A stretch of 33,382 bases of DNA from Candidatus Zhuqueibacterota bacterium (GCA_029262005.1 JAJDAG010000204.1:1-33382), one strand, 5' to 3'. Shown: positions 2,765 through 20,520, numbered from the stretch's first letter. Notes: a model not told the origin generated them from the sequence alone. A program made the numbers and translations.

Positions 2765-3361
2765 TCACTTCCCGGTTGTTTCCATGAATGTCACGGCAGT
2801 ATCTTTAAGTGCCTGTGTGTAAGAAATGTTTTCCTGATTCAGATGTCTGAACAGAGTACTATAAAATTTTAACCACAGATAGGGTGTGGCCTCTTTTTTC
2901 TGCACAGAGCGGACAAGGCAGTTCGGACGGTTTTGTTTGAGCTTGTCCTTTAACGGCCCTGATTGACAAACACACAGGTCAATAATCTTGTCTGTCTCTT
3001 TTGGGATGTTTTCAACAATATAAGATGTTTTGGCGAAACCATCAAAAAATTCAACGGAGTCATTTGCCCAATGAGAAAAGAGGATTATGACTTTATAGCG
3101 TTCATTCAGAAAGATTTTTCCAAAACGCTCTAGCGTTAAGTCAAAAACAATGGTTACTTTTAATGCAATGAGCGCAGGTAAAATATTTTGAAGTGGGTTA
3201 ACAAAATCATGCCGGTATTTCAGCCACACGCCGCTCGCAAATCCTTTGTCACCCTCGTGTCGAGATGAGAAGAACGTGTGTTTGGATGTTGGTATTCCAA
3301 AACCCATTACACAGTCGTTCGGTTTGATGATTGTGCTTTCAGCTTGTTCTAAAGGACTCAA
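2765..3361 (-). CDS. Small CHAT-like (caspase-fold) cysteine peptidase
   Basis: This 198-residue protein has the two hallmarks of a CHAT/caspase-like core. A beta strand ends in a His (VIILFSHW, His97). About 35 residues later a second strand ends in a Cys-Gln-Ser-Gly turn (DLCVCQSGPL, Cys132), comparable to the ACQTG motif of CHAT domains. It has no signal peptide and lacks the TPR or repeat regions of larger CHAT proteins, so it is a near-minimal cytoplasmic domain. I chose TTG at 3361 because AGGA sits six bases upstream; an earlier TTG at 3385 has no such site. The start lies inside the end of the DUF1598-like gene (23-base overlap). Sequence similarity is weak, so the call depends on the spacing of the His and Cys motifs. 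Confidence 0.55.
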   Translation of the reverse strand: MSPLEQAESTIIKPNDCVMGFGIPTSKHTFFSSRHEGDKGFASGVWLKYRHDFVNPLQNILPALIALKVTIVFDLTLERFGKIFLNERYKVIILFSHWANDSVEFFDGFAKTSYIVENIPKETDKIIDLCVCQSGPLKDKLKQNRPNCLVRSVQKKEATPYLWLKFYSTLFRHLNQENISYTQALKDTAVTFMETTGK

Positions 3362-5363
3362 TTTTTTTCCTAAAGTTGAGTTCAATGCGCAAGACTATTT
3401 CTATGTTGCCAAACTCATCTATAATGCGAATATCAAGGTCACTGTCTTTTAATTTATATTCTTTTTTTAGCTCTTGTCGAATCCTCAAAATATCATCCAG
3501 AAGATGGTCTGATCCAGGTTGTCTTTGCAACAAACGATTCATAAATATTTCTAAGATTTGTCTGGTTTTAGCAATGATTTCTATTGTGAATTGAAAAATA
3601 CTCTGTTGTGTGCGGGCAATGTATTTCACAATACCTTTGTATCGCTCCACCCCTTTGTTGTCCGTGAAACGCTCAATCCTGGTCCTGGGTTTTCTAACAA
3701 GTTTGAGATCGGAAGAAGTGATGGCATCCTGAATATCAGGGTTGCCGGGAAGTTTTTTTACAGCAATGTTATCTTTCACCCTTGCCTGGTGTATTTGGTA
3801 AGTCGCTACAAATCCTTCCATTTCGCGCAGTGAAAAACCCCTCATTTTTAAGTAAAGAGTCTCTGTTGATTGCATCGTCTGGTTAACCGCATCGGCAAGA
3901 ATTTGCAGGCTGTTCCCCTGATATATTATGTTGTCTTCAGAATCCGAAACTTTGTAATCAGCGCCAGACTTGTCAACCCTTACAATTGAGTAGTTTCTGC
4001 TGCTACTTTTTCCTTTCGGTTTTTTCTTTTTCCTTTTGGCTATTGGCGTATCCGGGCTACGACCTACGGGCCAGGATAAGCTCGTTGGTGCCAGCCTTGA
4101 ATCGAGGATTCTGGTTTTCAAATCTTTGATACGACTTGAGGCCCCTTTCCGGAAATGACGTTCTTTTACTGTGATATCGATGCCAACCCCGCCACAACTC
4201 GGCAACCAGAGCTTGAGGATTTGTTCACTGCCAGATGTTTTTTGCCGATGTGTAAATTCTTTTACCGCAGACCGCCCGGGGAGTTGGCGAGACACCGGAT
4301 TTTCCTGCACAGGGAAATCTTCTAAAAGGTAGCTGAGGTCCAAACCAGCAGTTGTGTGGGCTGATTTGTATTTTATAATCTTTGCCAGAGCCACGAACCG
4401 GAAAAGATTTTCGAGCTCACGATAAATGGGGCGCTGAATGGCAATTTGCTCATAGAGCTCTGAAAAATCTTTGCAGAAACTCTGAGCTGAGGGATCGACA
4501 CTTTTGCCAGAAATATAGCCGCCTTTAGAAGACAGATAGGTTTCCTCTGTCCGAAGTATCACCGGACATTGCTCGATTAAGACCACATCGTCGACCTCGG
4601 TATAAATGTTTTCACCCGGCTTAAACCAAAACCGGTTGAGGCCACCGATCGATACTTTTATGGGTTCGTTATTCCTGACAGACTGCTTAATTTGTTCGAG
4701 CTTTGTTCCCGTAAGGCTCTGAAAACCGGGCACGTTTAGAGAGTCGGTGCCATCGACCAGGCTTTTCATGTCGTAATCGGCTTGCACCATCACCTTGGCA
4801 AATCGGGTGTTGAACGGTATGCCAAGAACCCGGACGCTTTGCTGTTCTTGACAGGTTGTATGCCAGTCGTCTAACGAATTCTCTACCTTGTCAAAAGAAT
4901 CTCCTTTGGATATGTTATTTGCAACTTTATTAAGCCTTTGCATCGTGTTTGGATTGGGATCGATGGAACAGCCGGGATGGGAATAGATATAAGTGTTATT
5001 TTCCAACGGCGCATATTTGAACCAGGCATTGCGCAGTGCGATAACGAAATCTTCCAGGTACAACGGCGGTAGCGACGAGTCAGGATTGCCGAAAATGATT
5101 AGATCGTTGTTTTCCTTGTCAATTATGTATCCCAGTAATCTTTTGATGCCGGCAAGCTCAATTAAGTTGGACGCAATTGATCCTTGGTTGTTTAGTAGCT
5201 GGTTTTGAAGCGCTCGCAGGGATATTGCCTGGATTTCTGCTGTGCTGGATTCGGTTGTTGATTCAGCGAATTGTGGTGCTTCGTAATCTGTGCAGTTTGT
5301 TGTTAGAATAAGCAGGAGTTGGAAGATTATGAAACGGACAGGTTGTGAGTTGGTGCTTTTCAT
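3339..5363 (-). CDS. Large lipoprotein with DUF1598-like domain
   Basis: This 674-residue lipoprotein has a hydrophobic signal ending LTTNC (Cys24; Asn at -1 is unusual). Residues 90-270 carry motifs I associate with DUF1598, known mainly from planctomycetes: FGNPDSSLPPLYLEDFVIAL, PGCSIDPNPNTMQRL, and VRVLGIPFNTRFAKVMVQAD followed by YDMKSL. Residues 280-330 are helical. A basic linker around 440-455 (KRKKKKPKGK) precedes a separate C-terminal region of about 220 residues with no recognised domain. It should be a periplasmic surface protein, perhaps a sensor or scaffold. Its 3' end overlaps the CHAT-like gene, implying that lipoprotein and peptidase are made together although they sit on opposite sides of the membrane. 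Confidence 0.75.
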   Translation of the reverse strand: MKSTNSQPVRFIIFQLLLILTTNCTDYEAPQFAESTTESSTAEIQAISLRALQNQLLNNQGSIASNLIELAGIKRLLGYIIDKENNDLIIFGNPDSSLPPLYLEDFVIALRNAWFKYAPLENNTYIYSHPGCSIDPNPNTMQRLNKVANNISKGDSFDKVENSLDDWHTTCQEQQSVRVLGIPFNTRFAKVMVQADYDMKSLVDGTDSLNVPGFQSLTGTKLEQIKQSVRNNEPIKVSIGGLNRFWFKPGENIYTEVDDVVLIEQCPVILRTEETYLSSKGGYISGKSVDPSAQSFCKDFSELYEQIAIQRPIYRELENLFRFVALAKIIKYKSAHTTAGLDLSYLLEDFPVQENPVSRQLPGRSAVKEFTHRQKTSGSEQILKLWLPSCGGVGIDITVKERHFRKGASSRIKDLKTRILDSRLAPTSLSWPVGRSPDTPIAKRKKKKPKGKSSSRNYSIVRVDKSGADYKVSDSEDNIIYQGNSLQILADAVNQTMQSTETLYLKMRGFSLREMEGFVATYQIHQARVKDNIAVKKLPGNPDIQDAITSSDLKLVRKPRTRIERFTDNKGVERYKGIVKYIARTQQSIFQFTIEIIAKTRQILEIFMNRLLQRQPGSDHLLDDILRIRQELKKEYKLKDSDLDIRIIDEFGNIEIVLRIELNFRKKIESFRTS

Positions 5364-7529: not shown

Positions 7530-8738
7530 CTAGTGTTTTATTGTGTGCGATTGTGATTCAGGTGGCTCACACTTCAGGTCGCGAAAAAAAACCAAATAGT
7601 CTCTCAGTAATGAGCCACAGGTGTAGCTTGGCGTAATCTTAAAGTCCACATCGACTATTTCTTTATATCTATAAAGTTTTTTCGGCAGCTTGAAATGAGC
7701 TGTAATTGTCTTTCTGCTTAAGCCTCTTATGTTTCGTGTAACCAGGAGCAAATCTTTTTCTCGTTGGGTTAATTGTCCCTGATCGACGGAAATTCTTCCG
7801 CTTATTGAATCGTAAACAGCCGTTAGTTTAATGTTTATATCCATGCTCTGATGTCGTAATTGTGGGGTAATGAACTCTAGTTTACAGTCAAGTCGACCCC
7901 ATTTGTCTAAACTGAGAAAACGTGTTTTTACACAGATTTCTTGAACAAGGATCGAACGCATTTCTATGAAAGCTTCCTTCACAGTTGGCTCAATCAAGTC
8001 AAGGGTCTTGGCTGCAAACCTATAGTTTCCCAATAACGAGTCCCAAGCTGCAGTGTGAGCATAAGTTAGAAAGTTCGGAGACGGACGCTTGTAGGGTAAG
8101 TGAATCATGCATACTTTGGTTTTGAGGAGATTTCTAAATTCAGAAAGTCTGTTGGCGATTTTTCTATACTCAACGATTTGTGCTTCTTCCATGAAAACAT
8201 CTGTTGGCATAAATGGCAAGTCATTGTCCGGATCATTAATCCCATCACTTACGATCAGAACAACTTTAGTCCTCCTTGGTCTAGCTGGTTGAGGCGATAT
8301 GTGATTATCTATTAATTCACGCAATGTTGAATTAAAATCAGAAATCGTTAAGTTGAGACTATCTATGCTTGGAGTGTCTGGTAAAACAAGTATTTCTGTT
8401 AGGATAGCCCAAAGACTATCATTGGCGCCCATGCCATAACCTACATCTATTAGAGAGGTGATTTTCTGCAGTCGATTGGCGAAAAAATAGATTGCAATTC
8501 GATCACCATCCTGGTCAATTGCTCTAAGATTAGCAATAACTTGGTACAGAATTTCTCGCAAAGGCGTTCTGAGTTCTTCAGCATCCTTGGGTTGCCAAAT
8601 GCTGAGAGAGCAGTCGATAAGCAAGTGGAGGTCAAGCCCGCTGCCAATTCGTGTTTGATTTTCTTGCGGAAAAGCCGTGGCCGGTATACAAATAATGACG
8701 GCACACAATACCTTTAGAAGTAATGGAGGTCCATTCAT
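7530..8738 (-). CDS. Secreted von Willebrand factor A (vWA) domain protein
   Basis: A 402-residue protein with an N-terminal signal (PLLLKVLCAVIICIPATAF) and a vWA domain at about 33-260. The MIDAS metal site is complete: DCSLS at 42-46 (DxSxS), a Thr in FNSTL at 138, and Asp165 in LIVSDG. Metal-dependent ligand binding is therefore likely intact. The C-terminal third is beta-rich and unassigned. No lipobox or C-terminal anchor is seen, so it may be free in the periplasm. It follows the ZorB-like gene by 36 bases. It is the second vWA-type protein of the array and may bind the motor's periplasmic part or an outside ligand. Confidence 0.8.
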   Translation of the reverse strand: MNGPPLLLKVLCAVIICIPATAFPQENQTRIGSGLDLHLLIDCSLSIWQPKDAEELRTPLREILYQVIANLRAIDQDGDRIAIYFFANRLQKITSLIDVGYGMGANDSLWAILTEILVLPDTPSIDSLNLTISDFNSTLRELIDNHISPQPARPRRTKVVLIVSDGINDPDNDLPFMPTDVFMEEAQIVEYRKIANRLSEFRNLLKTKVCMIHLPYKRPSPNFLTYAHTAAWDSLLGNYRFAAKTLDLIEPTVKEAFIEMRSILVQEICVKTRFLSLDKWGRLDCKLEFITPQLRHQSMDINIKLTAVYDSISGRISVDQGQLTQREKDLLLVTRNIRGLSRKTITAHFKLPKKLYRYKEIVDVDFKITPSYTCGSLLRDYLVFFRDLKCEPPESQSHTIKH

Positions 8739-8774: not shown

Positions 8775-9470
8775 CTAAAACCGATAAAATAGCAGTAACT
8801 CTATTCGTCTGTTCATGCTTCTCTGTGTATCGTTAAAGTTTTGTGCCAGTATTCTACTCAGTGAGTATGTACTATCTATAACGGAACGTTTGACTGGTTT
8901 GTATTCCCCAAACGACGTGGCGGACATTAGATGTTTTGCAGGATCGATGCCGAGAGAATTTTGAAAAAAACGAAACACTTCGATAGCACGAAGCGATGCT
9001 AAATCAAGATTAGATTTATGCTTTGATGTCGGTACCGGGTCCGCATGCCCCTGAATCTGAATTTCCCGTATCTGGTAGAGTTGCTTTTTTAAGATGACTC
9101 CGAAGTTTCTTAAGACTGCACGGCCACCTGCAGTTAGGTTATATTCGTCTTGTGGAAATAGGATATGGCTGCCGAAACTAAACCTTTGCATCGTTGGTTC
9201 GTTTCGAATGACGAGGTCTCGGTTTTTTTTACGGTTTATGGATATGGCATAGACGTCTTTCCCCAATTCTTCCGGCTTGGCTCCGTAAGTATCTGCCATA
9301 GTCTCAATCATGGTCTGCTGCCGCTTTTGCACATGCCTCAGATTGACCGTGCCCGCGGATAGCACCGAGTAAATGATGAAGATGACAATGATCAAAATGA
9401 GCACAACAGAAAGCATCAAGTCGGCAAAGGATGGCCAGAAATTGAATGGTAAAGCATCTTCCTCATGCAT
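8775..9470 (-). CDS. ZorB-like MotB/OmpA stator protein
   Basis: This 231-residue protein has a single N-terminal helix (about 15-37) preceded by FNFWPSFADLML. Asp17 lies at the membrane entry, as does the proton-carrying Asp of MotB and ZorB. The C-terminal half (about 95-231) is an OmpA-type peptidoglycan-binding domain: ILFPQDEYNLT, IQIQGHADPVP, NLDLASLRAIEVFRFF, and the closing NRRIELLL. With its upstream partner it should form a peptidoglycan-anchored, ion-driven motor in the inner membrane. Its ATG overlaps the end of the ZorA-like gene by eight bases, a typical stator-pair arrangement. TolR/ExbD and flagellar MotB are alternatives; the partner's long tail argues for the Zorya-like class. 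Confidence 0.82.
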   Translation of the reverse strand: MHEEDALPFNFWPSFADLMLSVVLILIIVIFIIYSVLSAGTVNLRHVQKRQQTMIETMADTYGAKPEELGKDVYAISINRKKNRDLVIRNEPTMQRFSFGSHILFPQDEYNLTAGGRAVLRNFGVILKKQLYQIREIQIQGHADPVPTSKHKSNLDLASLRAIEVFRFFQNSLGIDPAKHLMSATSFGEYKPVKRSVIDSTYSLSRILAQNFNDTQRSMNRRIELLLFYRF

Positions 9471-11253
9471 TTTCTTTGTTTCCTATTTCTTGCACTTTTC
9501 CCTTCCTCTGTGGAAAACGTAGTTTAGCAAGCATCTTTAAAATCGTATTACGTTCCTTGTCTTGCGATGATTCCCGACTTGTCGTGAGCTTTCTGTGAGA
9601 GCCGCCTTTTCTTGTTGTTTTATTGTAAACGCGTGCTGCCGCTTTTATTTCACCTCCGAAGCTGCCAAGTGCAGTCGTAAAAGTAGCAAGGCCGTCAGTC
9701 AGAGCAGACAGTTGTTCTCCATGGGTTTGGCTGTTTCGTGAAAGAGAAGTCAATAGATCCACAATTTTAATATTCAAACCCTGGATTGCGTCCACTTGGC
9801 CTTTGCTTTGTGCCGTTTGCTTTCTAAACTGTTCGAGCATTTGCTCTAAGATGACAGTTCGAATTTGCTTGTCAAAGTTTTGAAATGTGCCATCTATCTT
9901 AATAGCGGTTTTGTCAAAAGGTTGGCGGAGCTCGTCAAACTTGTCACGGAGTGCAGTCAACTGCACTCGAAGTGCCACTTCAACATTACCTAAGCCATCT
10001 ACCAGTTGTGTTTTTAATTCCTCGATAAATTCTCTGTTTTTTGTACTCGTGCTCGAGCTAGCCTCAGTGGCTTCATCCAGGAATTTTTTCATTTTATCGT
10101 CTATATTGCTCCGTTCTTTTATATAGGCGTCCTCGTAACTTTTCAAGCTGGACACGATGCTTCCCAAGGAGAGATTTTGTTTGTCAAGGGTTTGGCCATA
10201 TGTATTTCTAAAATCTTCGGAACCTTGTTGCATCAATTCGTAAAGCGCAGTCACCTCATGTTGAAAACTGGTGATCTTCTCCACATTTTCCGTAAATTGT
10301 TTTGAAAATGTCAGCAAGTGCTCTGCAGCGCCATTGACTTGTTCAACTGCATTGTCGTATGATGCCGTTAAGGTGATTGCATTGTCGAGATTATCGTGCA
10401 ATTGCCCTGTTTTGCTTTCAATGTTTTTTGCAAATTTTGCGATTTGTTTAACGCCTTTAACGTTTTGATTTATAAGCTCTGCACTTTTCTCCAATTTTCC
10501 GGTTTCGGCCTGCGAACGCGTTGGGAATAGGCGAGGTATCCAGACAGTCAATGTCAGTCGCTCGAGGGCTTGCTGCACCGGTAGTGCATAGAAACGTATG
10601 TAGGCGCTATGCAGAATAATGCCGACTATGGTAAACATAACGCCCCAGATGCTGGGCGCAAAGGCGCTTTTTAATTCGCCAAGGAGGTTAGCAAGCCCGC
10701 CAATAACAGCTTCGTTGGTATTGTTGCCGGACGTAGCCGAATTTTCCATGATCGGTTCAAGTTCCGCCAGACTATCGGCAAGGCCGAATAGCGTTCCCAA
10801 AAGTCCGATTACAATGAACGTTGCCAGGACTGCCCTCATGAAGTGGTTCCAGCGAAAAAGCTGCTGCGAAGTGTGCCGAAGCAACTCGCCCACTTCCAGG
10901 CGACCCTCGTTCCAACCCGCGGAAAAAATGGTTTTCAGGTGGATGACGATCGGTTTGAGGGGCTTGCGAAGCTTTTCATCAATATAGTTGTCAAAGACTC
11001 CATCTTCATTGGTATCCGACTCATCAGAACCGCTGATGAAATGTTCTTGCCTTTTTTCTACTAACAGCTCAACATCTTTTAAAGAAGATAGTTGCTTTTT
11101 TATCCGTGTGAGCCTGCGCACTACGCCGATCAACCCAATGCCCCATGCTATGCAAGCGAACTGCAGAAACCTGACGATTGCAAGCGCGGCGGGATTTTCT
11201 GGAGTAAGGAATTGCCAGATTTCAGCAAAGTATTTTGTTAGTTCAGGATTCAT
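9463..11253 (-). CDS. ZorA-like MotA/TolQ/ExbB channel with long coiled-coil tail
   Basis: A 596-residue protein with three hydrophobic helices (about 24-45, 137-160 and 203-225). The second contains the TolQ/MotA signature IGLLGTLFGLADSL and the third follows LKSAFAPSIWGVMFTIVG. From about 235 to 540 it is almost entirely predicted coiled coil, ending in a basic tail. A proton-channel core with a long cytoplasmic coiled-coil tail is characteristic of ZorA, in which the tail is thought to carry the signal into the cell. Residues 80-92 (DTNEDGVFDNYID) resemble an EF-hand/type-3 calcium loop. GAAGG before the ATG supports the start. A 183-base gap separates it from the effector gene upstream. 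Confidence 0.82.
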   Translation of the reverse strand: MNPELTKYFAEIWQFLTPENPAALAIVRFLQFACIAWGIGLIGVVRRLTRIKKQLSSLKDVELLVEKRQEHFISGSDESDTNEDGVFDNYIDEKLRKPLKPIVIHLKTIFSAGWNEGRLEVGELLRHTSQQLFRWNHFMRAVLATFIVIGLLGTLFGLADSLAELEPIMENSATSGNNTNEAVIGGLANLLGELKSAFAPSIWGVMFTIVGIILHSAYIRFYALPVQQALERLTLTVWIPRLFPTRSQAETGKLEKSAELINQNVKGVKQIAKFAKNIESKTGQLHDNLDNAITLTASYDNAVEQVNGAAEHLLTFSKQFTENVEKITSFQHEVTALYELMQQGSEDFRNTYGQTLDKQNLSLGSIVSSLKSYEDAYIKERSNIDDKMKKFLDEATEASSSTSTKNREFIEELKTQLVDGLGNVEVALRVQLTALRDKFDELRQPFDKTAIKIDGTFQNFDKQIRTVILEQMLEQFRKQTAQSKGQVDAIQGLNIKIVDLLTSLSRNSQTHGEQLSALTDGLATFTTALGSFGGEIKAAARVYNKTTRKGGSHRKLTTSRESSQDKERNTILKMLAKLRFPQRKGKVQEIGNKENA

Positions 11254-11436: not shown

Positions 11437-12501
11437 CTAATGTTGATCTTCTTCTGTTCGAACCCCCACGACGTAGTAGCTGTTCTTGGCGCTTTGCTTG
11501 TAGCAACATCCCATTTGAAAGTTGACTATCCAGAGAGTGTCTATCTCAACCATATCTGAGGACCAAATCCAAGTTCTATCTCCCCCAAAGATTTCATTTA
11601 TGTAGAAGCCTGATTTGCTTTGTTTTCGTTCCACTAACGACATCAGTTCTTCAATAGTAGGAAGCCGCCAGTCCTTATGCCCCGCGTATGTGTTCCGGTT
11701 TAACCTTTCCACATACTTTGTGGCACCGGAATAATCCTGAGCTGGAGGCAAGTCTGATTGTTGCCAGCAGAGGCCTGTGTTATGATCGATTACTATTTTT
11801 CTGCCATCACGCTTTTCGATCTTGTAATCATGATAGATACCACGGCCACCAGGATTCCATACAGTATGGTAGAGTTCTTTATCCTCGAGAACTCTCTGCA
11901 AAGTCTTGTCAGACAACTTCTTAAACGGCTTGGAACGGAGTCGCCTTATGAGCGCACGTTTCTGTGAATCTATTTTTCTTTCAAGAGTAGATATCTTTGC
12001 ATCTTTTTGTCGCAACTTTAAATTGAGCGCAGATATCTCTTTTTTTGTAACCATACGTCGAGTTGGCTTAAAATCTTGCACAGGGTTGGTCGCATTTTTG
12101 CTCCAGTTTGTGAAATCACGCAGCGAGTCGATAATTTCTTGCCTTAGACCATCCAACCCTTTTTTCGTCGGGTTGTAGATTATGCATTGATAACTTTGAA
12201 TATCGAAAGGCAAGGGGGTTGCTTTTTGAATTATACAAATGGTTTTGTTTGAGATCGTATGAGCCACACCCATTTCATAGAATACGTTGGGGCTCTTGCC
12301 TGTCATATCAGCTACAACAACGTCACTCTCAAATATCTTTTCAATAATGCTCTTGGTGATGTTGTGTGGTCCCTTGGTTTCATCTGCTCGAATTGGATGA
12401 AAGCCGGATTCTATACATGCTGGCTTTACGGCTTCTTTGTACACACCATCCATTGACCTTTTAAAGGGCATGAGCACAAAACATCTTTTTTCCTTTTTCA
12501 T
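11437..12501 (-). CDS. Nucleoside 2-deoxyribosyltransferase-like domain fused to DUF1566
   Basis: Residues 1-110 of this 354-residue protein have the Rossmann-like pattern of nucleoside 2-deoxyribosyltransferase/TIR-like nucleotide enzymes: CFVLMPFKRSMDGVY, a RADE motif, VVVADMTGKSPNVFYEMG (Glu76 fits the catalytic Glu), then PFDIQSY. Relatives cleave N-glycosidic bonds of nucleotides, and in defence loci some are proposed NAD or nucleotide depleters. Residues 155-185 are a coiled coil. Residues 240-350 form a DUF1566 (Lcl C-terminal) domain with LCWQQ, HKDWRLPTIEEL and WIWSSD. There is no signal peptide, so it is cytoplasmic. A plausible reading is an effector with a sensing or docking tail. 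No clear ribosome site precedes the ATG. Confidence 0.8.
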   Translation of the reverse strand: MKKEKRCFVLMPFKRSMDGVYKEAVKPACIESGFHPIRADETKGPHNITKSIIEKIFESDVVVADMTGKSPNVFYEMGVAHTISNKTICIIQKATPLPFDIQSYQCIIYNPTKKGLDGLRQEIIDSLRDFTNWSKNATNPVQDFKPTRRMVTKKEISALNLKLRQKDAKISTLERKIDSQKRALIRRLRSKPFKKLSDKTLQRVLEDKELYHTVWNPGGRGIYHDYKIEKRDGRKIVIDHNTGLCWQQSDLPPAQDYSGATKYVERLNRNTYAGHKDWRLPTIEELMSLVERKQSKSGFYINEIFGGDRTWIWSSDMVEIDTLWIVNFQMGCCYKQSAKNSYYVVGVRTEEDQH

Positions 12502-12552: not shown

Positions 12553-13704
12553 TCAACCAGCGATACCTATGTCGCCTTTATTCACTAATCGCCAACTCTC
12601 TTTCAGCATATCGGACTCAAAATATGCTGGTTTCTTCAATTTAATGGTGCTGCCCTTCCGACCCTTGTCAAAATCGTCACAGTTAAAAATATATCCCAGT
12701 GTGCCTCGTTTGTACTTTTCTTCAGAAAAGCCAGAAGACAACTTGGGAACCACGGCATAAGCGCCACCTTCATTTTTGACTTGTTCAATAGCTAAAAACT
12801 CCCCGTTCGATGCAGTTCCGAACTCCGGCTTAATGCGGTAGTCATGTGCGCGTGCTTCGGAATTCAGCACACCAATCGTGGTCGTGTGGTAACGCTGCTT
12901 GAATTCTCTACTCGTTGAAATTCGCTCAACCACCGCGTTGTAGGCACCAACGAGACTTTCAAGAGGTGTTTTCTGGGGTGATTTTGGAATCGCCACTGGA
13001 GATTCGGGCGCTCGCTGTGCCTTGTCTTCGTGCCGCCGTTCACGGTCTTTTGGTCCTGACAACTCGCCTATGTCGCCACGGATTTGCTCTAGTACATATC
13101 GCTGGTCATTCAGTTTTTCACTCAGCCACTCCTGCAAATGCCCGGTGCCCCTCCTTGCGGCCAGCTTCTGCAGCCTCCAATATGCCAGACCGCCGGAGCC
13201 GAACAGCAACAAGGAGCAGAGTAAAATCAGATTTTTGATGCCTCTGGTGATGCTGGCAGCATCACCAGGGCTCTTTTTCAGATATTTCTGAAGGCTGGCA
13301 ATTCGATCTTGTAAATCACGTTGATTTATCAACCTGGCTTTGGATTCTACCAACGAGTGCAAATAAATGAACTGGTTTAAGGCTGTCTGAGCTCTTGTTC
13401 GCAATTGATTGATTTGCCAGGGTTTCATACCGTTCGGACTGTGCCAGCTTTCGGAGTCTGGGAATTTCTTATGCAGTTCCCTGATTGCCTCATCGGCCTC
13501 GCGTAGTAGTTTGCGATCATCCTCGGGCGATTCAGACCAATTGTGCTGAATGATCCCCTTTTGGCGCTGATTCAACTCGGCTGAGATGTCCTGAAATCGC
13601 TGTTTGAGTATCTCAAATTCACCTGACGGGCGGACAACTGGCGCGGAGTGAGCAATACAGCAGGAAATGAGAATTACGAAGACAGTGTTGATTTGTGATG
13701 TCAT
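12553..13704 (-). CDS. Bitopic membrane protein with periplasmic helical and cytoplasmic C-terminal domain
   Basis: This 383-residue protein has a signal peptide (about 1-20), a helical periplasmic region (25-150), one membrane helix (158-177) and a cytoplasmic part. After a charged linker (220-245) comes a compact domain (about 255-383) with FLAIEQV, YAVVPKLSSGF, KLKKPAYFES and SWRLVNKGDIG. I have a memory of this pattern (VVP, then KPA, then W.L..KG) closing many cyanobacterial and related signalling proteins, but I cannot name it. AAGGA seven bases before the ATG supports the start. It sits between the actin-like ATPase and the deoxyribosyltransferase-like gene and could link envelope events to either. 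Confidence 0.7.
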   Translation of the reverse strand: MTSQINTVFVILISCCIAHSAPVVRPSGEFEILKQRFQDISAELNQRQKGIIQHNWSESPEDDRKLLREADEAIRELHKKFPDSESWHSPNGMKPWQINQLRTRAQTALNQFIYLHSLVESKARLINQRDLQDRIASLQKYLKKSPGDAASITRGIKNLILLCSLLLFGSGGLAYWRLQKLAARRGTGHLQEWLSEKLNDQRYVLEQIRGDIGELSGPKDRERRHEDKAQRAPESPVAIPKSPQKTPLESLVGAYNAVVERISTSREFKQRYHTTTIGVLNSEARAHDYRIKPEFGTASNGEFLAIEQVKNEGGAYAVVPKLSSGFSEEKYKRGTLGYIFNCDDFDKGRKGSTIKLKKPAYFESDMLKESWRLVNKGDIGIAG

Positions 13705-13739: not shown

Positions 13740-16700
13740 TTAAACAGGTTGTTGAGTTTTTGCCCATTCATTTGTCTTAATCCTGATAAGATGTTTCAAT
13801 ATGACAATGAATAAAGGCTCGACATGCACCTCTTCGGTTTCGCTGGCCTTGGCCGCCACCAGGTATTTATCTAAAGCTTGGCTACAAACATTATGAATGC
13901 TGTCGTCAATCCGTATCGGTTTAATGATATCTCTGTAGTCCGGCGATTTGACTCGTTCCTGGAAAGCACGCAAGAACTGGGTGAACTGCGTAAGTTCAAC
14001 TGGTCTTTCAACTCCTTGGTGCAGTCGATCGGCATTAAGTTTTGTGTGCCACTTTTGAGTTTTGTCATTGACGATAAAATCTTCGCCAGAAATGACACCA
14101 CCCGAGTCTAGCTGATCTATCCCGCTGAATTTGGCTCCTGTGCTGACTAAGCCATAGGCGACCTCAGATTTGGGATTCGGGCTGGTGCAAATCTTGAACT
14201 TGGACTCTTCTGTCTTGAATCCGGACCCGGCAAGTAGCATTGCCTTGAAAAGCCGGCTAATTGGTGAATCAGTGTCGTACTTAGTGCTCCCCCCTGCCAG
14301 CCAATCAAACATTCGTGAGCCATTGCCCCCGACAAAAACGTTGGGAAGCACTTGCGGAAATGAAATGTCTTTGTCTCTACTTAGCGCGCCTAATACTTGC
14401 CCCATGTAAAAGGTTATTCCCGAAAGCGAAAGTGCTATGAGTTGCAAAAAACCAATTATCATAGGCTCTGCGGCAGATGAGTGCAGATGTCTTAACCACT
14501 CACCTCCCTGTTCTTTCAACAACACATCCAGATGCGTGTAATAATCTTCTTCAGGCGCGTTTGTTGACAAGCCTTTGTCTTGCACGAATTGTGCAAGCAA
14601 CGCGCGATTTGCATAAAACAGGTTAAGCATAATATCACGTCCGGCAAACCGAATAGACGATTGCCAGCGCAGATTGTAGTCATGCCAAACGGATAGATCC
14701 GAGGTTGCACCACCAATGTCGAGGCAAACTCCAGTGCTGCCAAACGGTGCGACATTTTCAATGGTTGGATTGTCAGCAAAAAACTGACCGGAAGCAACAC
14801 TTTCTGTTTTCGCTATCGGCTTGTCACTACCTAAACCGGTCAACTTCGCACACTCCTCAACTATGATATTCCATGCGCCCTTGAATTGCCGCGTTTCACC
14901 GGCAGAAAACGCAGTTGGAAACGAGTAACGCCATTCGACATCTTTCGCACCTTTTGAAACTGCCTCTGCTGCACATTGCAGACACAATTGAGTCAGGAAT
15001 GCCTCTGTGCGCTTGCGATCTTCACGGGTTTGCCCCCACTTCAGGTTTGTGTGCATGTCGGGATCAGTGACATTAAATTGAGTGATTTTATTTTTAAAAA
15101 AAATGTGCCCCTCAAGAAGGGGCTTCAATGTGTACTCCGTAGGATCTGCAATTTGAAAATCTTGATATAAAGTAAGGAAAGGGGTAACTGCGTTATTACC
15201 GGCCACAAATCGGTAAAGAAATGTATCATCGCGGGCATCGCCTATAGAATTAGTGACCCTGAAGTAGTGCTCATCAAACTGGAAAGGTTTGGGCTTTTGA
15301 TTGCCGTCCTCATAGTAAACATTTGTCCCGGTGGTTCCGAAATCAATGCCAATTTTCCACTCTTCTGTTTGCCGTTTGGAGACGGGCTGCTGCAAAAGAA
15401 TGAGGCCTGCCGTCACTACATCGAACCGGTTTCGTTTGGTATCAGGCTTCTCATAAAAACACTGGAACGCTTCGGGGAAGACACTTAACCTCCTTATATT
15501 TTCCAGCCTCTTGCCTCTATTCGGGGTTTTACATTCGATAAAGACGCCACCGTCCGGCAGTTTGTGCTTAAAGGCGTCCTTATTTTGGGGGTTCTGTGTT
15601 TCCATAGCCGCACCTGGCGTTAACGGGGCAGCGTAGAATGTACTTTCTGTGAACTCACGGGAATAATAGGTGTAGTAGGCTTGCCAATCCGCAGCTTTAA
15701 AGTTCGGCCAGATCTCGAGGACAGGTAAAGATTCCAATTCGTGCAATTCGTTGTCTGCAATGCGGTATTCTTTGGTTAGATCAAAATCTCTGCCGTTACC
15801 TTTCGGTCCGCGCAAGCGCACGCGTAACCGGGCCAGGATGCCGTCATTGGTCTTCTCAAATGAGAAGCGCTTAGCCAAATCATCCAGACTGAGGTAATCC
15901 AAGAGCCACGACTGCACCGGCAGGATTGGCGTAATCAACCTGTTTTCGAAACTGAGATTCTGCATCCCTAGCACTTGCCTAGACCCCGGGAATGCATCTT
16001 CACGATCTGCAAAATAGATCATCTCGGTGAAGAACATATCAGGAGTCACCCACTCGGCGCCTTGCAGTTTTCTATTTCCAAACATGGTTTGGTCTTTGCC
16101 CAGACCGCTGTAAGGAATTGAATTCAGTGTGGTCGAGCCGATCACCACCACATCCTGCTCCACCATGTTCCAGTCCGCAGCGATTTTCTTGTCAATTACA
16201 AGAAGCGCTTTCTCTGGCGCCGGCTTGCGTGACGGTTCCAAGAGCACATGGGAGCCATACGCATCATCATCTGAAGGCCTGATTGGCTTGTCGATATAGG
16301 TGAAAATCCCATGTTTGAGGTGTAGTCCGGAAGTAGATAGTCTGGCCTCATCGACACGTTGACCCCGGCCCAGATCATCCTGATAATTGTCAATGCGTTT
16401 GGTCAGGTCATTTCGCTTTTGCGTTATGTCCTGAACCTGTTTCGGGTCGTTGGTTGTCGGTCTCCCCAAAGAGTTTAGTTCGGTTCGTGCATGTTCCAGC
16501 CATGAAATCAGAGACTGCTTCTCATAATCGTTCAAATAGGGCTTAGGATCACCTAAGAGACGCCCATCAAACCACGGAACGTTACGTATGCGGTTCAAAT
16601 AATTGACAGACGTGCAAACAAGCGTCGTGGGCGATGTCATGCCTATAGGTTGGCCGTCGAACAGCAACACGTATATTTGATACCAGTCGCTTTTCTCGTC

Positions 16701-17138
16701 GATAAAGTGCTGAGGCGCCAGATCGCTCAACGCCTTGAGAAATGGATGTATCTCATCAACCAGTTCCTGTTCATCCTGCACCTCAGTCTTTAGGGGGTTA
16801 GGTATTGTTATGGTCTGCGAATCCATGGGCAGACCTCTGATTTCCTTGAGTGCCAGCATCGCCAGGAGTCCACGCCACTCAGCTATGACTCGACTGTGCA
16901 ACAAATGGGACTCATCGAAAAATGCCATTTCAAACAAGAGTGGTCGCGCCCATATATCCGGAATGGAATCAACCTCAATGAAATCCTGGTCAATGGAATC
17001 TATCTCCAGGCTGTCGCTCAAGTCTGATAGTTCGATGTTACTGCCAACCCGCCACGCTCCACGCTCGTCAAAGCCGGCAAGTTTACGCATTTTTTCAGGG
17101 TCGGTGGTTTCTTTCAGCTTTGGCAGAAATGGATGCAT
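13740..17138 (-). CDS. Large protein with C-terminal actin/Hsp70-superfamily ATPase
   Basis: The protein has 1132 residues. The C-terminal part (about 594-1005) has the ASKHA nucleotide site: phosphate-1 IGIDFGTTGTNVYY (597-610), phosphate-2 VCLDIGGATSDLSVW (804-818) and adenosine motif NVFVGGNGSRMFDWLA (933-948). It should bind ATP and may polymerise or act as an Hsp70-like switch. The 590-residue N-terminal half is unassigned. It contains helical and beta segments, no membrane helix, and a charged coil near 235-265. Size and layout recall the SrfB group of large actin-like proteins, but I cannot prove that relation. GAGGAG eight bases before the ATG fixes the start. It lies 44 bases after the tubulin-like gene. 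Confidence 0.82.
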   Translation of the reverse strand: MHPFLPKLKETTDPEKMRKLAGFDERGAWRVGSNIELSDLSDSLEIDSIDQDFIEVDSIPDIWARPLLFEMAFFDESHLLHSRVIAEWRGLLAMLALKEIRGLPMDSQTITIPNPLKTEVQDEQELVDEIHPFLKALSDLAPQHFIDEKSDWYQIYVLLFDGQPIGMTSPTTLVCTSVNYLNRIRNVPWFDGRLLGDPKPYLNDYEKQSLISWLEHARTELNSLGRPTTNDPKQVQDITQKRNDLTKRIDNYQDDLGRGQRVDEARLSTSGLHLKHGIFTYIDKPIRPSDDDAYGSHVLLEPSRKPAPEKALLVIDKKIAADWNMVEQDVVVIGSTTLNSIPYSGLGKDQTMFGNRKLQGAEWVTPDMFFTEMIYFADREDAFPGSRQVLGMQNLSFENRLITPILPVQSWLLDYLSLDDLAKRFSFEKTNDGILARLRVRLRGPKGNGRDFDLTKEYRIADNELHELESLPVLEIWPNFKAADWQAYYTYYSREFTESTFYAAPLTPGAAMETQNPQNKDAFKHKLPDGGVFIECKTPNRGKRLENIRRLSVFPEAFQCFYEKPDTKRNRFDVVTAGLILLQQPVSKRQTEEWKIGIDFGTTGTNVYYEDGNQKPKPFQFDEHYFRVTNSIGDARDDTFLYRFVAGNNAVTPFLTLYQDFQIADPTEYTLKPLLEGHIFFKNKITQFNVTDPDMHTNLKWGQTREDRKRTEAFLTQLCLQCAAEAVSKGAKDVEWRYSFPTAFSAGETRQFKGAWNIIVEECAKLTGLGSDKPIAKTESVASGQFFADNPTIENVAPFGSTGVCLDIGGATSDLSVWHDYNLRWQSSIRFAGRDIMLNLFYANRALLAQFVQDKGLSTNAPEEDYYTHLDVLLKEQGGEWLRHLHSSAAEPMIIGFLQLIALSLSGITFYMGQVLGALSRDKDISFPQVLPNVFVGGNGSRMFDWLAGGSTKYDTDSPISRLFKAMLLAGSGFKTEESKFKICTSPNPKSEVAYGLVSTGAKFSGIDQLDSGGVISGEDFIVNDKTQKWHTKLNADRLHQGVERPVELTQFTQFLRAFQERVKSPDYRDIIKPIRIDDSIHNVCSQALDKYLVAAKASETEEVHVEPLFIVILKHLIRIKTNEWAKTQQPV

Positions 17139-17182
17139 ATCTGTTTCTCCTCATCAAATTCAAGTGGTGAGCCCCGCAAGGT

Positions 17183-18664
17183 TTACGCGCAGGCGTCATA
17201 TAACGCCCGAAAGAACTTGCCCAATCCCACAGCCTGCACGTCTTTAACTTTGCTACCACACATTATTTCCCAAACTTTACTAATCTCGTTTGGCCTTTCC
17301 TTAGCTTCCGGCAGGATTAAGTTCCCGAACTCATCGTTAACAAAGTCATGAAGCAAATGAACGATATTCATTTCATCTTTCTTTTCTTTGCTAGCAAATG
17401 TAGTGTAATTAACGAGCTCAATATTTTGCCTTTTTGCAGAAATTTCAATCTGCGCCAGCCACAGGAGCAATGAGCGGCAGTAGTCCCTGACTTGTGCGAG
17501 TTCTTTTTGTGTTTCAGCATCCTTGAGATCAATTTTAGCGCGTTTAAAGTAATCAATATACCATGGCGCTCGATAGTTTTTACCCTTTTCACGAATGGAG
17601 ATTAGCGTTTTAAGAAAAACATTCAAGTATGCAAATGCAAAGCGCGTCAAATGCTCAGTCTTGTTCTTTATTTCAGTGCCATTCTTGCCATCCGGCAAAT
17701 CAAGCCATCCAATTTTTTCCTGGTCCTGTCGCGCAATCATGGCATACCCCTTTGGCTCATCCCTTGTATAAAAGTCGCGGGCGGCCAATGCGGCGTAAAA
17801 TTCAATAAAATGGGCATCGTTCTCCTGCTCGGTTGAGCCAATACTAAATGTCACGGGACTTGGCTCGGATTCTCCTAACAGGTAAACAATATCATGTTGC
17901 TTTTGTTGGGTTCGATAGTACTGCAGCGCCATTTGAGTGTTCATAAGAAAGTGATCTGCGGCAGCATGCAGGACATCTTTGTGATTTGACGGGACGAAAG
18001 TAAAATAAGGCAGAATCAAGGCCCCCCCAATTGTCGTGAGATTGGCCTCCTGCGGTCTGAGTCCGTTTCTAATTAACCGCGTAATTGTGGGGAATCCGGA
18101 AGCGCCGGTACCGCCGAAGATAGAGGAGAACAAGAAGATTTTGACTTTATGGCCGGCATTTGTATCCGCTTCAATTTTTTTTCTGAAGGTTAACCATGGT
18201 TCTTCTTCACCTAGATTAACAGTTCGCGCCAAGATAGCCGCACCGATGGAAGGGTGCCCGCGAAACCCCATATCAAGGCTAGTTTTCTTCTCATCTTCGC
18301 TGTAAAGCACATCGAATAAATGAGCCGCCGCTGGGCACTTTGCCCTGAGAGAACTGTACTCAAAGAAATCTGCGAGTTCAGGGCGTTGTTTCGACATAAA
18401 AGGCGACCAGACATGTGGATCGCCCACTGCGATATCAGTTCCAAACATATCGACCTTGCTGGGGTCACCTATCTTTAGTTTTTGGCAGGCCTGATATTGC
18501 CTGAGTGTAATAGTAGCGCGTTCCAGGCTGCCATTTGCCCGGTCCGGATCTACAAACAAGCAGTATAGATCCTGTTTTGGCAGCATTCCCATGCCGCAGA
18601 GATGGGTCAGTGCCTCAATGCATTTAGCGCCGGTGCCACCGATGCCTATAGCGTAGTAGCTCAT
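17183..18664 (-). CDS. Tubulin/FtsZ-superfamily GTPase
   Basis: A 493-residue protein whose N-terminus reads YYAIGIGGTGAKCIEAL, a Rossmann start of the FtsZ/tubulin kind. Residues 177-192 (FLFSSIFGGTGASGFP) form the tubulin signature loop (GGTGxSG) that contacts GTP phosphates. Additional sequence (about 200-493) lacks recognisable FtsZ C-terminal motifs, so this is a divergent, non-division member resembling the Pfam 'tubulin-like' family. GGAGGA upstream best fits ATG at 18664; a GTG lies one codon earlier. It is immediately followed by the actin-like ATPase, giving two cytoskeletal NTPases in tandem. Whether it forms filaments or works as a GTP switch is unknown. Confidence 0.82.
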   Translation of the reverse strand: MSYYAIGIGGTGAKCIEALTHLCGMGMLPKQDLYCLFVDPDRANGSLERATITLRQYQACQKLKIGDPSKVDMFGTDIAVGDPHVWSPFMSKQRPELADFFEYSSLRAKCPAAAHLFDVLYSEDEKKTSLDMGFRGHPSIGAAILARTVNLGEEEPWLTFRKKIEADTNAGHKVKIFLFSSIFGGTGASGFPTITRLIRNGLRPQEANLTTIGGALILPYFTFVPSNHKDVLHAAADHFLMNTQMALQYYRTQQKQHDIVYLLGESEPSPVTFSIGSTEQENDAHFIEFYAALAARDFYTRDEPKGYAMIARQDQEKIGWLDLPDGKNGTEIKNKTEHLTRFAFAYLNVFLKTLISIREKGKNYRAPWYIDYFKRAKIDLKDAETQKELAQVRDYCRSLLLWLAQIEISAKRQNIELVNYTTFASKEKKDEMNIVHLLHDFVNDEFGNLILPEAKERPNEISKVWEIMCGSKVKDVQAVGLGKFFRALYDACA

Positions 18665-18697
18665 CACTTCCTCCGGATAGTTACAATGGTGCGAATT

Positions 18698-19168
18698 TTA
18701 CCAGCCGACCCTTATCAAACTTGCTAAAGGCGGGGCGTATTTATAAGAAGGCGGGGAGAAAAGCAAAGTTGAAATATAGTAGCATAGCAAGGCATTTACA
18801 GCGTGTAAAGTGTAAGCCGCCCACATGCCTACCTGTGCCTGGCGGGTAAATATTATGGCTGCGGCGTTGGCAGCGATTGGTAAGAAAACAAAAAGAAACC
18901 ACGTACCTCTCTTGCCTGAATCAGACAGATTGTTTACACGCAAAATCCATTGGCCTAAAATATACCAAAGAATCGAGGCCGAAACAGCCGTTGCGACACC
19001 TATACCCGCCCAGTAGCGAAAGCTGTTGAGCCATTGATCAAATCGTACCCCAGCCAGCGGTATAATTGCTTGCGGTAGTATATACTGTTCCTCCAATATT
19101 GAAACAATCACAAAATAAAAGAGAAAAGCAACCGAGATCATTCCAAACAGGTTTAGTGCGTGTTTCAT
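18698..19168 (-). CDS. Small 4-TM membrane protein
   Basis: A 156-residue protein with helices near 7-25, 54-75, 90-107 and 115-136 and no sizeable soluble domain. I chose ATG at 19168 because AGGAAG lies five bases before it; an upstream TTG would add ten residues with no such site. It is placed between the vWA-like lipoprotein and the tubulin-like GTPase, with gaps of 26 and 33 bases. No family is recognised. A membrane anchor or channel subunit of the array's machine is a guess. Confidence 0.65.
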   Translation of the reverse strand: MKHALNLFGMISVAFLFYFVIVSILEEQYILPQAIIPLAGVRFDQWLNSFRYWAGIGVATAVSASILWYILGQWILRVNNLSDSGKRGTWFLFVFLPIAANAAAIIFTRQAQVGMWAAYTLHAVNALLCYYISTLLFSPPSYKYAPPLASLIRVGW

Positions 19169-19194
19169 GGCGTCTTCCTTGTATTTAGTTGTTC

Positions 19195-20520
19195 TCAACT
19201 TTTTTCAAAATAAAAATAGAGCGTTGCTAATCTTGGTTTATGAACTACAAGATTGCTCCGCCATAGATCAACTAGCAATCGATGCAGATTTAGCGTGGTT
19301 GGACCAACAGATACCTTCTTTTTCCCGGAGCCGTTGCTTATTGATTTCTCCATGTCCCATTCATTGATCCAGACCGGGAATTGATATGCCATTGGTTTGG
19401 GTCGAATCACGACTTCATAATAAAATAAGCCATCACCTGGCAATAAAGTTGGTCTGAGTTCTGCTCTGACAGCTATTTTGTCTTCAGAGATTTGCAAGTC
19501 TGGAAACGTTAACGCTTTCGCTGCCTGAGAATTGGAGAAAAAAGTATCCGGCAAACATTGTGTAGCCGAAATTTCAAAATCGATTGATTTGTGGTCGAAT
19601 TGCAAGGAAAATTCAGCCGGGCTGTAAGAAAATGTAGAGACGAAAGTTGCGACTTCCGGGTCACCATTGAGCCGAAACTGCTTCACTCTAGGATCAAAAT
19701 AAATGAACGGGATTAGATTCCGGGCCTCACTTAAGTGGTCAGTGGAGTCAACCATGGCATCAGCGAAAGTGACAGGCTGGTTGGTCAGATATGGCGAATA
19801 AACAAGGAATTCATCGACATCAAAGTCCAAACCGGAAGTCTTGAATTGCTCATAGAAATGGATCACATCTACGTACTTTCCCATCATGATGATATAAAAC
19901 GGCCGGAATGTGCTCTCATCACTTTTGCTTCGATAAGGTGCTGATGGGCGATTGGGTCCAAGATCATAAATGTAGCCATTGAATTCACTGCGTATGCCAA
20001 GGATACCAAAAGTGAGGTTCTCAAGGAAGCATTTTTCTTTCAATTTTTTGGTCAGTAAATTCACATCGGATTTATTCTGAAACAAATCAGTCAGAACCAG
20101 GCTGATATCTGAGGTTTTTATTCTGTCGATGACTTGCTGAATCCTGGTTATTCTGTTGATCTTGCTGTCGCTATAGAAATTTGGTTCCTTTGCTCGAATG
20201 TACTCCCTGCCCTCTAATGGAAGTATCTCATCGCCAAATTTAAAAAATTCCACGTCAGCATGAGCCCAACCACTAATCACGGTGCCTTCTAGCGCTTCGA
20301 TGGTCTTGCAATATCTTGTATTCGGCCCGGGTTTGACGAAGCCTATCATCGAAAGGGTAGCATCGACATAGATGTGTGCATCGACCTTGGAGGTGAATAC
20401 TTCCATTGCCATTATTGGAGGCAGAGGAGGTGTCTTTGAGTATTCAGTGCACGAAGTAACAAAAAAACAAAATCCAAGCAAGCTACCTATTATAAACATT
20501 TTTTGTTCGTAGTTTTTCAA
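19195..20520 (-). CDS. vWA-like lipoprotein, first gene of the array
   Basis: This 441-residue protein starts with a signal ending FVTSC (lipidated Cys24), followed by a proline-rich linker. The vWA-like part begins at AHIYVDATLSMIGF, where Asp53-x-Thr55-x-Ser57 is a DxSxS-type MIDAS motif, and continues to SLVLTDLFQN with Asp145, the position of the second metal-site Asp. The C-terminal half is beta-rich (RAELRPTLLPGDG, YYEVVIRPKP). It would face the periplasm. Translation can begin at TTG 20520, preceded by AAGGG at seven bases; an ATG at 20499 is the alternative. As the first gene of the array it probably sits just behind the main promoter. Confidence 0.75.
   Translation of the reverse strand: MKNYEQKMFIIGSLLGFCFFVTSCTEYSKTPPLPPIMAMEVFTSKVDAHIYVDATLSMIGFVKPGPNTRYCKTIEALEGTVISGWAHADVEFFKFGDEILPLEGREYIRAKEPNFYSDSKINRITRIQQVIDRIKTSDISLVLTDLFQNKSDVNLLTKKLKEKCFLENLTFGILGIRSEFNGYIYDLGPNRPSAPYRSKSDESTFRPFYIIMMGKYVDVIHFYEQFKTSGLDFDVDEFLVYSPYLTNQPVTFADAMVDSTDHLSEARNLIPFIYFDPRVKQFRLNGDPEVATFVSTFSYSPAEFSLQFDHKSIDFEISATQCLPDTFFSNSQAAKALTFPDLQISEDKIAVRAELRPTLLPGDGLFYYEVVIRPKPMAYQFPVWINEWDMEKSISNGSGKKKVSVGPTTLNLHRLLVDLWRSNLVVHKPRLATLYFYFEKS

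Follow-up and report, generated by a model that had tools for sequence, protein, structure and literature searches.

A tubulin-like GTPase and an actin-like ATPase encoded as a linked gene pair in a bacterial envelope cassette

Introduction

Why would a bacterium encode a tubulin-like and an actin-like protein side by side, in addition to its own FtsZ genes, and is such a neighbourhood conserved enough to be called a pair? This question is raised by a 33,382-nucleotide stretch of DNA from a Candidatus Zhuqueibacterota bacterium (JAJDAG010000204.1), hereafter the window, which is the whole of contig G000:C118 in a genome of 5.77 Mb and 205 contigs. In most bacteria, the actin-fold protein FtsA and the tubulin-fold protein FtsZ are encoded by neighbouring genes of the dcw cluster; outside this couple, we know of no actin-fold and tubulin-fold proteins linked as tightly as those described below. 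Here we show that the tubulin-like GTPase-fold protein and the actin/Hsp70-fold ATPase of the window are an almost obligate, co-inherited gene pair within an envelope cassette. The anatomy of this cassette is, in our judgement, close to certain, and a use in sensing and response or in conflict is proposed much more tentatively.

Results

The two proteins and their nucleotide-binding motifs

All the predicted genes from position 20520 down to 581 lie on the minus strand, to which every window coordinate given below refers, and are mostly separated by short gaps. The tubulin-superfamily GTPase-like protein (494 amino acids, 17183..18667) has a GTG start, although the ATG at 18664, one codon further on, is the probable one, and is followed after 44 bases by a 1132-residue protein (13740..17138), in which a novel N-terminal part of about 590 residues precedes an actin/Hsp70-fold ATPase (residues 592 to 1130, approximately). 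These open reading frames agree in position and spacing with an earlier note on this DNA, which had bounded the tubulin-like gene at the ATG.

Specifically, the tubulin-like protein matches the Pfam family Tubulin_2 (PF13809) with 33.1 bits, over a cut-off of 27, and an E value of 4.6e-8; each of the 42 homologues in the alignment matches this model at E<=0.1, and 31 of them match PF00091 (best 1.7e-6). Its AlphaFold2 model (predicted local distance difference test score, pLDDT, 86.9; predicted template modelling score, pTM, 0.91) was compared with the PDB through Foldseek, and FtsZ, tubulin and TubZ were among the matches listed (best E 1.3e-4). On this tubulin-type GTPase fold we found both a GGxG-containing T1 loop (GIGGTG, residues 8-13, 18629..18646), with G10, G11 and G13 invariant in 42 sequences, and a T4 signature loop of the GGTGSG type (GGTGASG, residues 185-191, 18095..18115), with G185, G186, G188, A189 and G191 equally invariant. 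Membership of the tubulin superfamily rests on the Pfam and structure matches, because an hhalign comparison of the family with FtsZ gave no support (0.1%). The alignment suggests candidates for a T6-like segment (YLLGNQN...), an H7-like segment (N.PHF.ELYAALAA) and a T7-like segment (W.DLP, in which the aspartate is conserved); as the profile comparison lacks statistical support, these assignments are tentative. One cyanobacterial copy of the gene (G169:C1:1717414-1718910, locus L109) contains an in-frame TGA.

As for the actin-like protein, its model (pLDDT 84.7, pTM 0.75) found BeeR, Hsp70 and MreB on top in Foldseek (best E 5.7e-8), and the family profile searched against the PDB found MreB (4e-6) and FtsA (2e-4). 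The actin fold carries the phosphate-1, phosphate-2, adenosine and connect motifs of the actin/Hsp70 ATPase superfamily: the phosphate-1 motif DFGTTGT (residues 599-605, 15324..15344), with D599, F600 and G601 invariant in 46 sequences; the phosphate-2 motif DIGGATSD (residues 807-814, 14697..14720), with D807, G809 and D814 invariant; and the adenosine motif GGNGSR (residues 937-942, 14313..14330), in which G937 and G938 are likewise invariant. Among the actin-family homologues listed, these three motifs are kept together with connect-1, connect-2 and a TES/NEPTAAA-like helix. The first 590 residues or so form a separate region, modelled for the most part with confidence, to which no Pfam model matched.

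By sequence, the 1132-residue protein gave only an FtsA fragment below the cut-off (13.7 against 31.8 bits); as no full-length family match was obtained, membership of FtsA or MreB was rejected. The same holds for SrfB (PF07520), with no match at E<=1 for the protein; SrfB was not found in the window's genome either, in a search that recovered no control, and the comparison with SrfB proposed in the earlier note thus found no counterpart here. The other structural claims of that note, namely tubulin- and actin-type folds with kept nucleotide motifs and an N-terminal part of about 590 residues devoid of known domains, are supported by the models and by the alignments of 42 and 46 homologues.

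The same note held that neither protein is a normal FtsZ or MreB/FtsA, and this stands, the genome having two canonical FtsZ-type genes elsewhere (G000:C3:2367 and G000:C125:17274, in frames of 412 and 586 amino acids) and a separate MreB/FtsA-type gene. Of the 25 genomes searched, most have two FtsZ-type genes.

Linkage and co-inheritance of the pair

A single-sequence scan of genome contigs found no relatives, while a five-sequence alignment found 112 loci. The 80 of these that were recovered come from Cyanobacteriota, Selenomonadaceae, Poribacteria and Acidobacteriota, and from one metagenome-assembled genome (MAG) labelled as Euryarchaeota. Where a locus has sufficient room, gene calling and profile searches mostly showed a vWA lipoprotein gene followed by those for the transmembrane (TM) protein, the tubulin, the actin and the adaptor; in many cyanobacteria the vWA gene is divergent and adjoins the block. 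In all the 55 loci holding both the tubulin and the actin genes the two are co-oriented, with a median gap of 42 bp and a gap of at most 100 bp in 45 cases. In addition, the tubulin distance matrix and the actin one show a correlation of 0.96, within cyanobacteria too.

The two genes are also found together at the level of whole genomes. Specifically, 22 of 244 sampled cyanobacterial genomes have the actin gene, 21 have the tubulin gene and 21 have both (Fisher 2e-29, a value inflated by relatedness); the sole genome with actin and no tubulin (G156) holds actin fragments at contig ends. Independent searches of 72,556 plasmid records for the tubulin and for the actin returned the identical six, one of them a chromosome-sized Prevotella record. 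The latter (L009, NC_022111.1) is a 1.77-Mb replicon of chromosome-like size, listed as a plasmid in PLSDB.

The distribution is patchy. In the window's phylum the cassette occurs in one of 82 genomes, the window's own; the actin profile also gave MreB/FtsA-type matches in 69 of the 82, which are not cassettes. In the tubulin tree, the window is nearest to Acidobacteriota and Poribacteria sequences. Patchiness and plasmid copies suggest horizontal spread, yet the main phyla stay apart in this tree. Diverged cassettes with the same gene order were found in Prevotella sp. oral taxon 299 (L009), on four IMG/VR contigs (L122-L125) and in two further genomes (L130 and L131), and the arrangement is therefore old, because such distant versions keep the same order. 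A phage origin was rejected, since neither 50,697 phage records nor PHROGs gave a match; the four IMG/VR contigs, which may be of host or of viral nature, hold whole distant cassettes.

Two kinds of unusual loci were also observed. The Euryarchaeota-labelled MAG (L089, 0.9 Mb) has a cassette that groups among cyanobacterial sequences, and mis-binning is possible. In Selenomonadaceae, several loci (L035, L040, L045 and others) encode orphan actin-family proteins of about 1230 residues with a C-terminal D domain and no neighbouring tubulin gene; in the three such genomes checked, a tubulin gene is present elsewhere.

The membrane adaptor and its D domain

The gene next to the actin-like one encodes a membrane adaptor (383 amino acids, 12553..13704) with a signal peptide, a further TM helix (156-174), a coiled coil and a C-terminal module of about 120 residues, here called the D domain (residues 249-379, 12568..12960). 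As a full-length adaptor profile attracted coiled coils, a domain-only profile was used, which found the D domain in 134 proteins from 74 loci; no Pfam model matched it in the members scanned. The domain is C-terminal in 98 proteins, 56 of which have it behind a TM helix, and N-terminal in 12, where a coiled coil comes next and some proteins carry WD40 propellers or an FGE-sulfatase domain. In cyanobacteria it is joined to WD40, propeller (Reg_prop) or FGE-sulfatase modules, and in locus L012 it is coupled to regulator propellers. A further 22 are actin-family proteins, nearly all from Selenomonadaceae, in which the D domain is fused to the ATPase itself. This fusion is the best single clue that the adaptor and the actin-like protein may act together.

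Other genes of the cassette and the ZorAB-like motor

In the window, the gene order from 20520 to 7530 is vWA lipoprotein, small membrane protein, tubulin-like, actin-like, adaptor, TIR-like/Lcl_C, ZorA-like, ZorB-like and second vWA protein, and further membrane and peptidase genes follow in the run. The first gene encodes a vWA-like lipoprotein (441 amino acids, 19195..20520) with the lipobox VTSC and the DATLSM motif, which resembles a metal-ion-dependent adhesion site; no Pfam model matched this protein. Its family was found in 44 loci; a lipobox-like match occurs in 38 of these, and the pattern D[AGS][ST].[ST]M.G in nearly all. The small inner-membrane protein (166 amino acids with three or four predicted TM helices, 18698..19198) belongs to a family present in 54 loci, usually directly ahead of the tubulin gene.

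Behind the adaptor, the window encodes a ZorA/MotA-like protein (596 amino acids, 9463..11253), which combines three TM helices with a long helical tail (PADLOC ZorA1 8.3e-8; MotA_ExbB under its cut-off, at E 0.0011), and a ZorB/MotB-like protein (231 amino acids, 8775..9470) having a TM helix with the aspartate of WPSFADLM and an OmpA peptidoglycan domain (OmpA 1.1e-12; PADLOC ZorB1 2.8e-15). Both genes occur in this position in the Acidobacteriota locus L010, in Poribacteria loci, in the cyanobacterium Snowella (L079) and in L130; L064, from Poribacteria, has ZorA alone, at a contig end, and a ZorB-like gene occurs in L124/125, while two Microcystis cassettes have one next to them. Wherever the N-terminus of a cassette ZorB is complete, its TM aspartate is kept. 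The earlier note had linked paired GTP-type and ATP-type sites to a membrane motor; the window's gene run bears this out, and the linkage recurs in several lineages.

Membership of Zorya proper was rejected: NCBIfam ZorA scored 10.9 of 500 bits and ZorB1 24.1 of 400 bits, no ZorC/ZorD or ZorE effector was matched by the ten proteins scanned and the PADLOC matches are distant. After ZorB, a staphylococcal-nuclease-type lipoprotein follows directly in L130 (4987-5742), and a transglutaminase-like protein (weak Pfam match) comes next in L011 (17443-18399) and other Poribacteria loci.

For two genes of the run no relative was found among the other cassettes, namely the one for the second vWA protein (7530..8738; VWA PF00092 at cut-off) and that for an optional accessory protein lying between the adaptor and ZorA-like genes (11437..12501), with a TIR-like/nucleoside deoxyribosyltransferase-like N-terminus and an Lcl_C domain (Lcl_C 1e-22; PADLOC 'Effector TIR' 3.2e-13). 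The window also encodes a DUF1598 protein (3339-5363), and a related 1710-residue open reading frame lies between the TM and tubulin genes of L010, the nearest cassette.

Discussion

The cassette shares with FtsA-FtsZ the adjoining actin-fold and tubulin-fold genes, in a system where FtsA is the membrane tether of FtsZ. The two differ in the order of their genes, the sizes of the proteins, the families to which these belong by sequence and the companion genes, and the host has its FtsZ genes elsewhere. The view of the earlier note that the two folds are rarely encoded side by side had overlooked ftsA-ftsZ, which is seen in the window's own phylum, where FtsA-type matches adjoin FtsZ matches (for example in G008:C46, G021:C57 and G013:C1). 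What is unusual is a second pair, unrelated to ftsA-ftsZ, with envelope partners. No description of it was found in the literature searched, which covered few subscription papers and preprints.

The FtsZl1-vWA-OmpA operons, for which membrane remodelling was predicted (Makarova and Koonin 2010; PMC2875224), share with the cassette a divergent tubulin-like protein (Tubulin_2), vWA and OmpA-type neighbours, a membrane setting and a patchy distribution in bacteria. However, FtsZl1 proteins have about 1090 residues and match PF13809 over its full length with E values near 1e-110, against about 495 residues and values from about 1e-4 to 1e-12 in the family studied here, and no actin-like partner is described for them (PMC2875224). 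According to hhalign, the two families are related over the T4-T6 region only (96.7%); while the T6-H7 part of FtsZl1 could not be placed in the 2010 description (PMC2875224), T6-like and H7-like motifs can be proposed in the window family. True membership of Tubulin_2/FtsZl1 was rejected on the basis of the length of 494 residues and of a partial match to PF13809 (147-233 of 356). FtsZl2, described as an FtsZ-like domain with an alpha/beta C-terminus of about 300 residues, from Proteobacteria and with no linked genes (PMC2875224), differs from the window family in the strict gene linkage and the taxonomy of the latter, and is set apart by the published description only.

The DO-GTPase/GAP1-N2 systems have in common with the cassette tubulin, Hsp70-fold, vWA, peptidoglycan-binding and TM modules, as well as variable effectors attached through adaptor domains (PMC7159879). 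There, tubulin and HSP70 occur in non-overlapping themes, with DO-GTPase, GAP1 and FNIII proteins (PMC7159879), whereas here tubulin and actin are a near-obligate pair, and a Pfam scan of 20 window proteins revealed neither DO-GTPase nor GAP1. Zorya, in turn, shares a MotA-like protein with a long tail and a MotB-like protein with an OmpA domain; the cassette differs in having no ZorC/D/E among the proteins scanned, in scores far under the NCBIfam cut-offs and in the optional nature of its motor.

What might such a pair be for? The explanation that we favour, and to which we give somewhat less than an even chance as a whole, is an envelope-anchored, trans-envelope machine switched by nucleoside triphosphates (NTPs), with a role in sensing and response or in defence-like conflict. 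The D domain, on the cytosolic side, would dock adaptors onto the actin-like ATPase, which by analogy with FtsA and FtsZ may co-assemble with the tubulin-like GTPase at the inner membrane. An envelope event would be reported by the vWA lipoprotein, by further periplasmic modules and, in the cassettes that have one, by the motor; the nucleotide state would then flip, and the flipped assembly could recruit or drive the variable modules that D domains connect to it. Sensing and response or conflict is the likeliest use, ahead of cell division or DNA partition, because of the vWA lipoprotein, the membrane adaptors, the swappable D-domain modules and the Zorya-like motor, and also because of linked genes of conflict type. 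Specifically, the tubulin and actin genes of L024 are separated by iSTAND, MoxR-like and vWA-CoxE genes and those of L032 by MoxR-like and vWA (vWA-CoxE) genes, and a McrB-like AAA gene lies near the Prevotella cassette L009, in addition to the TIR-like gene of the window; a weak DO-GTPase2 match was seen beside L023. The reading draws further on related tubulin/HSP70 systems published as conflict systems (PMC7159879), and a precedent is given by Zorya, whose defence requires ion flow, peptidoglycan binding by ZorAB and the ZorA tail (PMC11890865).

Several observations speak against this explanation. The T6 and T7 elements of the tubulin-like protein are assigned by motif resemblance only. 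Most cyanobacterial and Selenomonadaceae cassettes seen are devoid of the motor, which is therefore an add-on and not an essential power source, and ZorC, ZorD and ZorE were not matched among the ten core and neighbouring window proteins scanned. PADLOC has no model for the tubulin, the actin, the vWA lipoprotein or the adaptor. Finally, housekeeping genes flank most of the cyanobacterial cassettes inspected, so that in cyanobacteria there is no defence-island signal.

These housekeeping flanks are in line with an alternative, a cytoskeleton that would remodel membranes or organise the envelope and be either a derivative or an analogue of FtsA-FtsZ. In it, the actin-like protein and the D-domain adaptors would tether tubulin-like polymers to the inner membrane for shaping or transport, with no immune role. 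The layout of the two neighbouring genes, a core including membrane adaptors and a TM protein, and the remodelling predicted for the related FtsZl1 operons (PMC2875224) point the same way. On the other hand, the patchy occurrence (9% of the sampled cyanobacteria and a single genome among the 82 of the window's phylum), the plasmid copies, the variable D-domain modules with conflict-type companions and an actin part closest in fold to BeeR, Hsp70 and MreB rather than FtsA make this alternative doubtful, if a serious one. No better placed, and in our opinion unlikely, is a two-cytoskeleton device in which tubulin and actin, co-assembled on the inner membrane via D-domain adaptors, would be driven or gated by an ion-powered, envelope-spanning motor, as a new immune or mechanical machine; if true, it would be a new kind of bacterial machine using both NTPs and ion flow.

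A more improbable alternative is a chaperone-like assembly switch, with the actin fold acting on client complexes in the manner of an Hsp70-type ATPase, the tubulin as a GTP switch, the vWA protein binding peptides or metal, and no filaments. Hsp70 does rank among the top structural matches, and tubulin and HSP70 components of conflict systems have been proposed as NTP-dependent assembly devices (Kaur et al. 2020; PMC7159879); however, no DnaJ or GrpE was seen in the cassette, and the extra part is N-terminal, unlike the C-terminal peptide-binding domain of Hsp70. A ParM/TubZ-like device for plasmid or chromosome partition is very improbable: although cytomotive proteins of both the actin-like and the tubulin-like kind are used in plasmid segregation and some cassettes are plasmid-borne, most of the copies found lie in chromosomal assemblies, while the plasmids of Gloeothece and NIES-970 have their own ParA genes and the core partners are envelope proteins.

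In conclusion, the pair is tightly linked across at least four named phyla and belongs to a small, defined gene set that occurs in cyanobacteria available in culture as well as on plasmids, and which offers a test case for whether two cytoskeletal NTPases act as a single switch. The same gene set bears on the role of D-domain adaptors and on the reason for a Zorya-like motor in several lineages. If the cassette is an immune system, as the sensing and conflict reading allows, the predicted tubulin/Hsp70 conflict systems would become directly testable.

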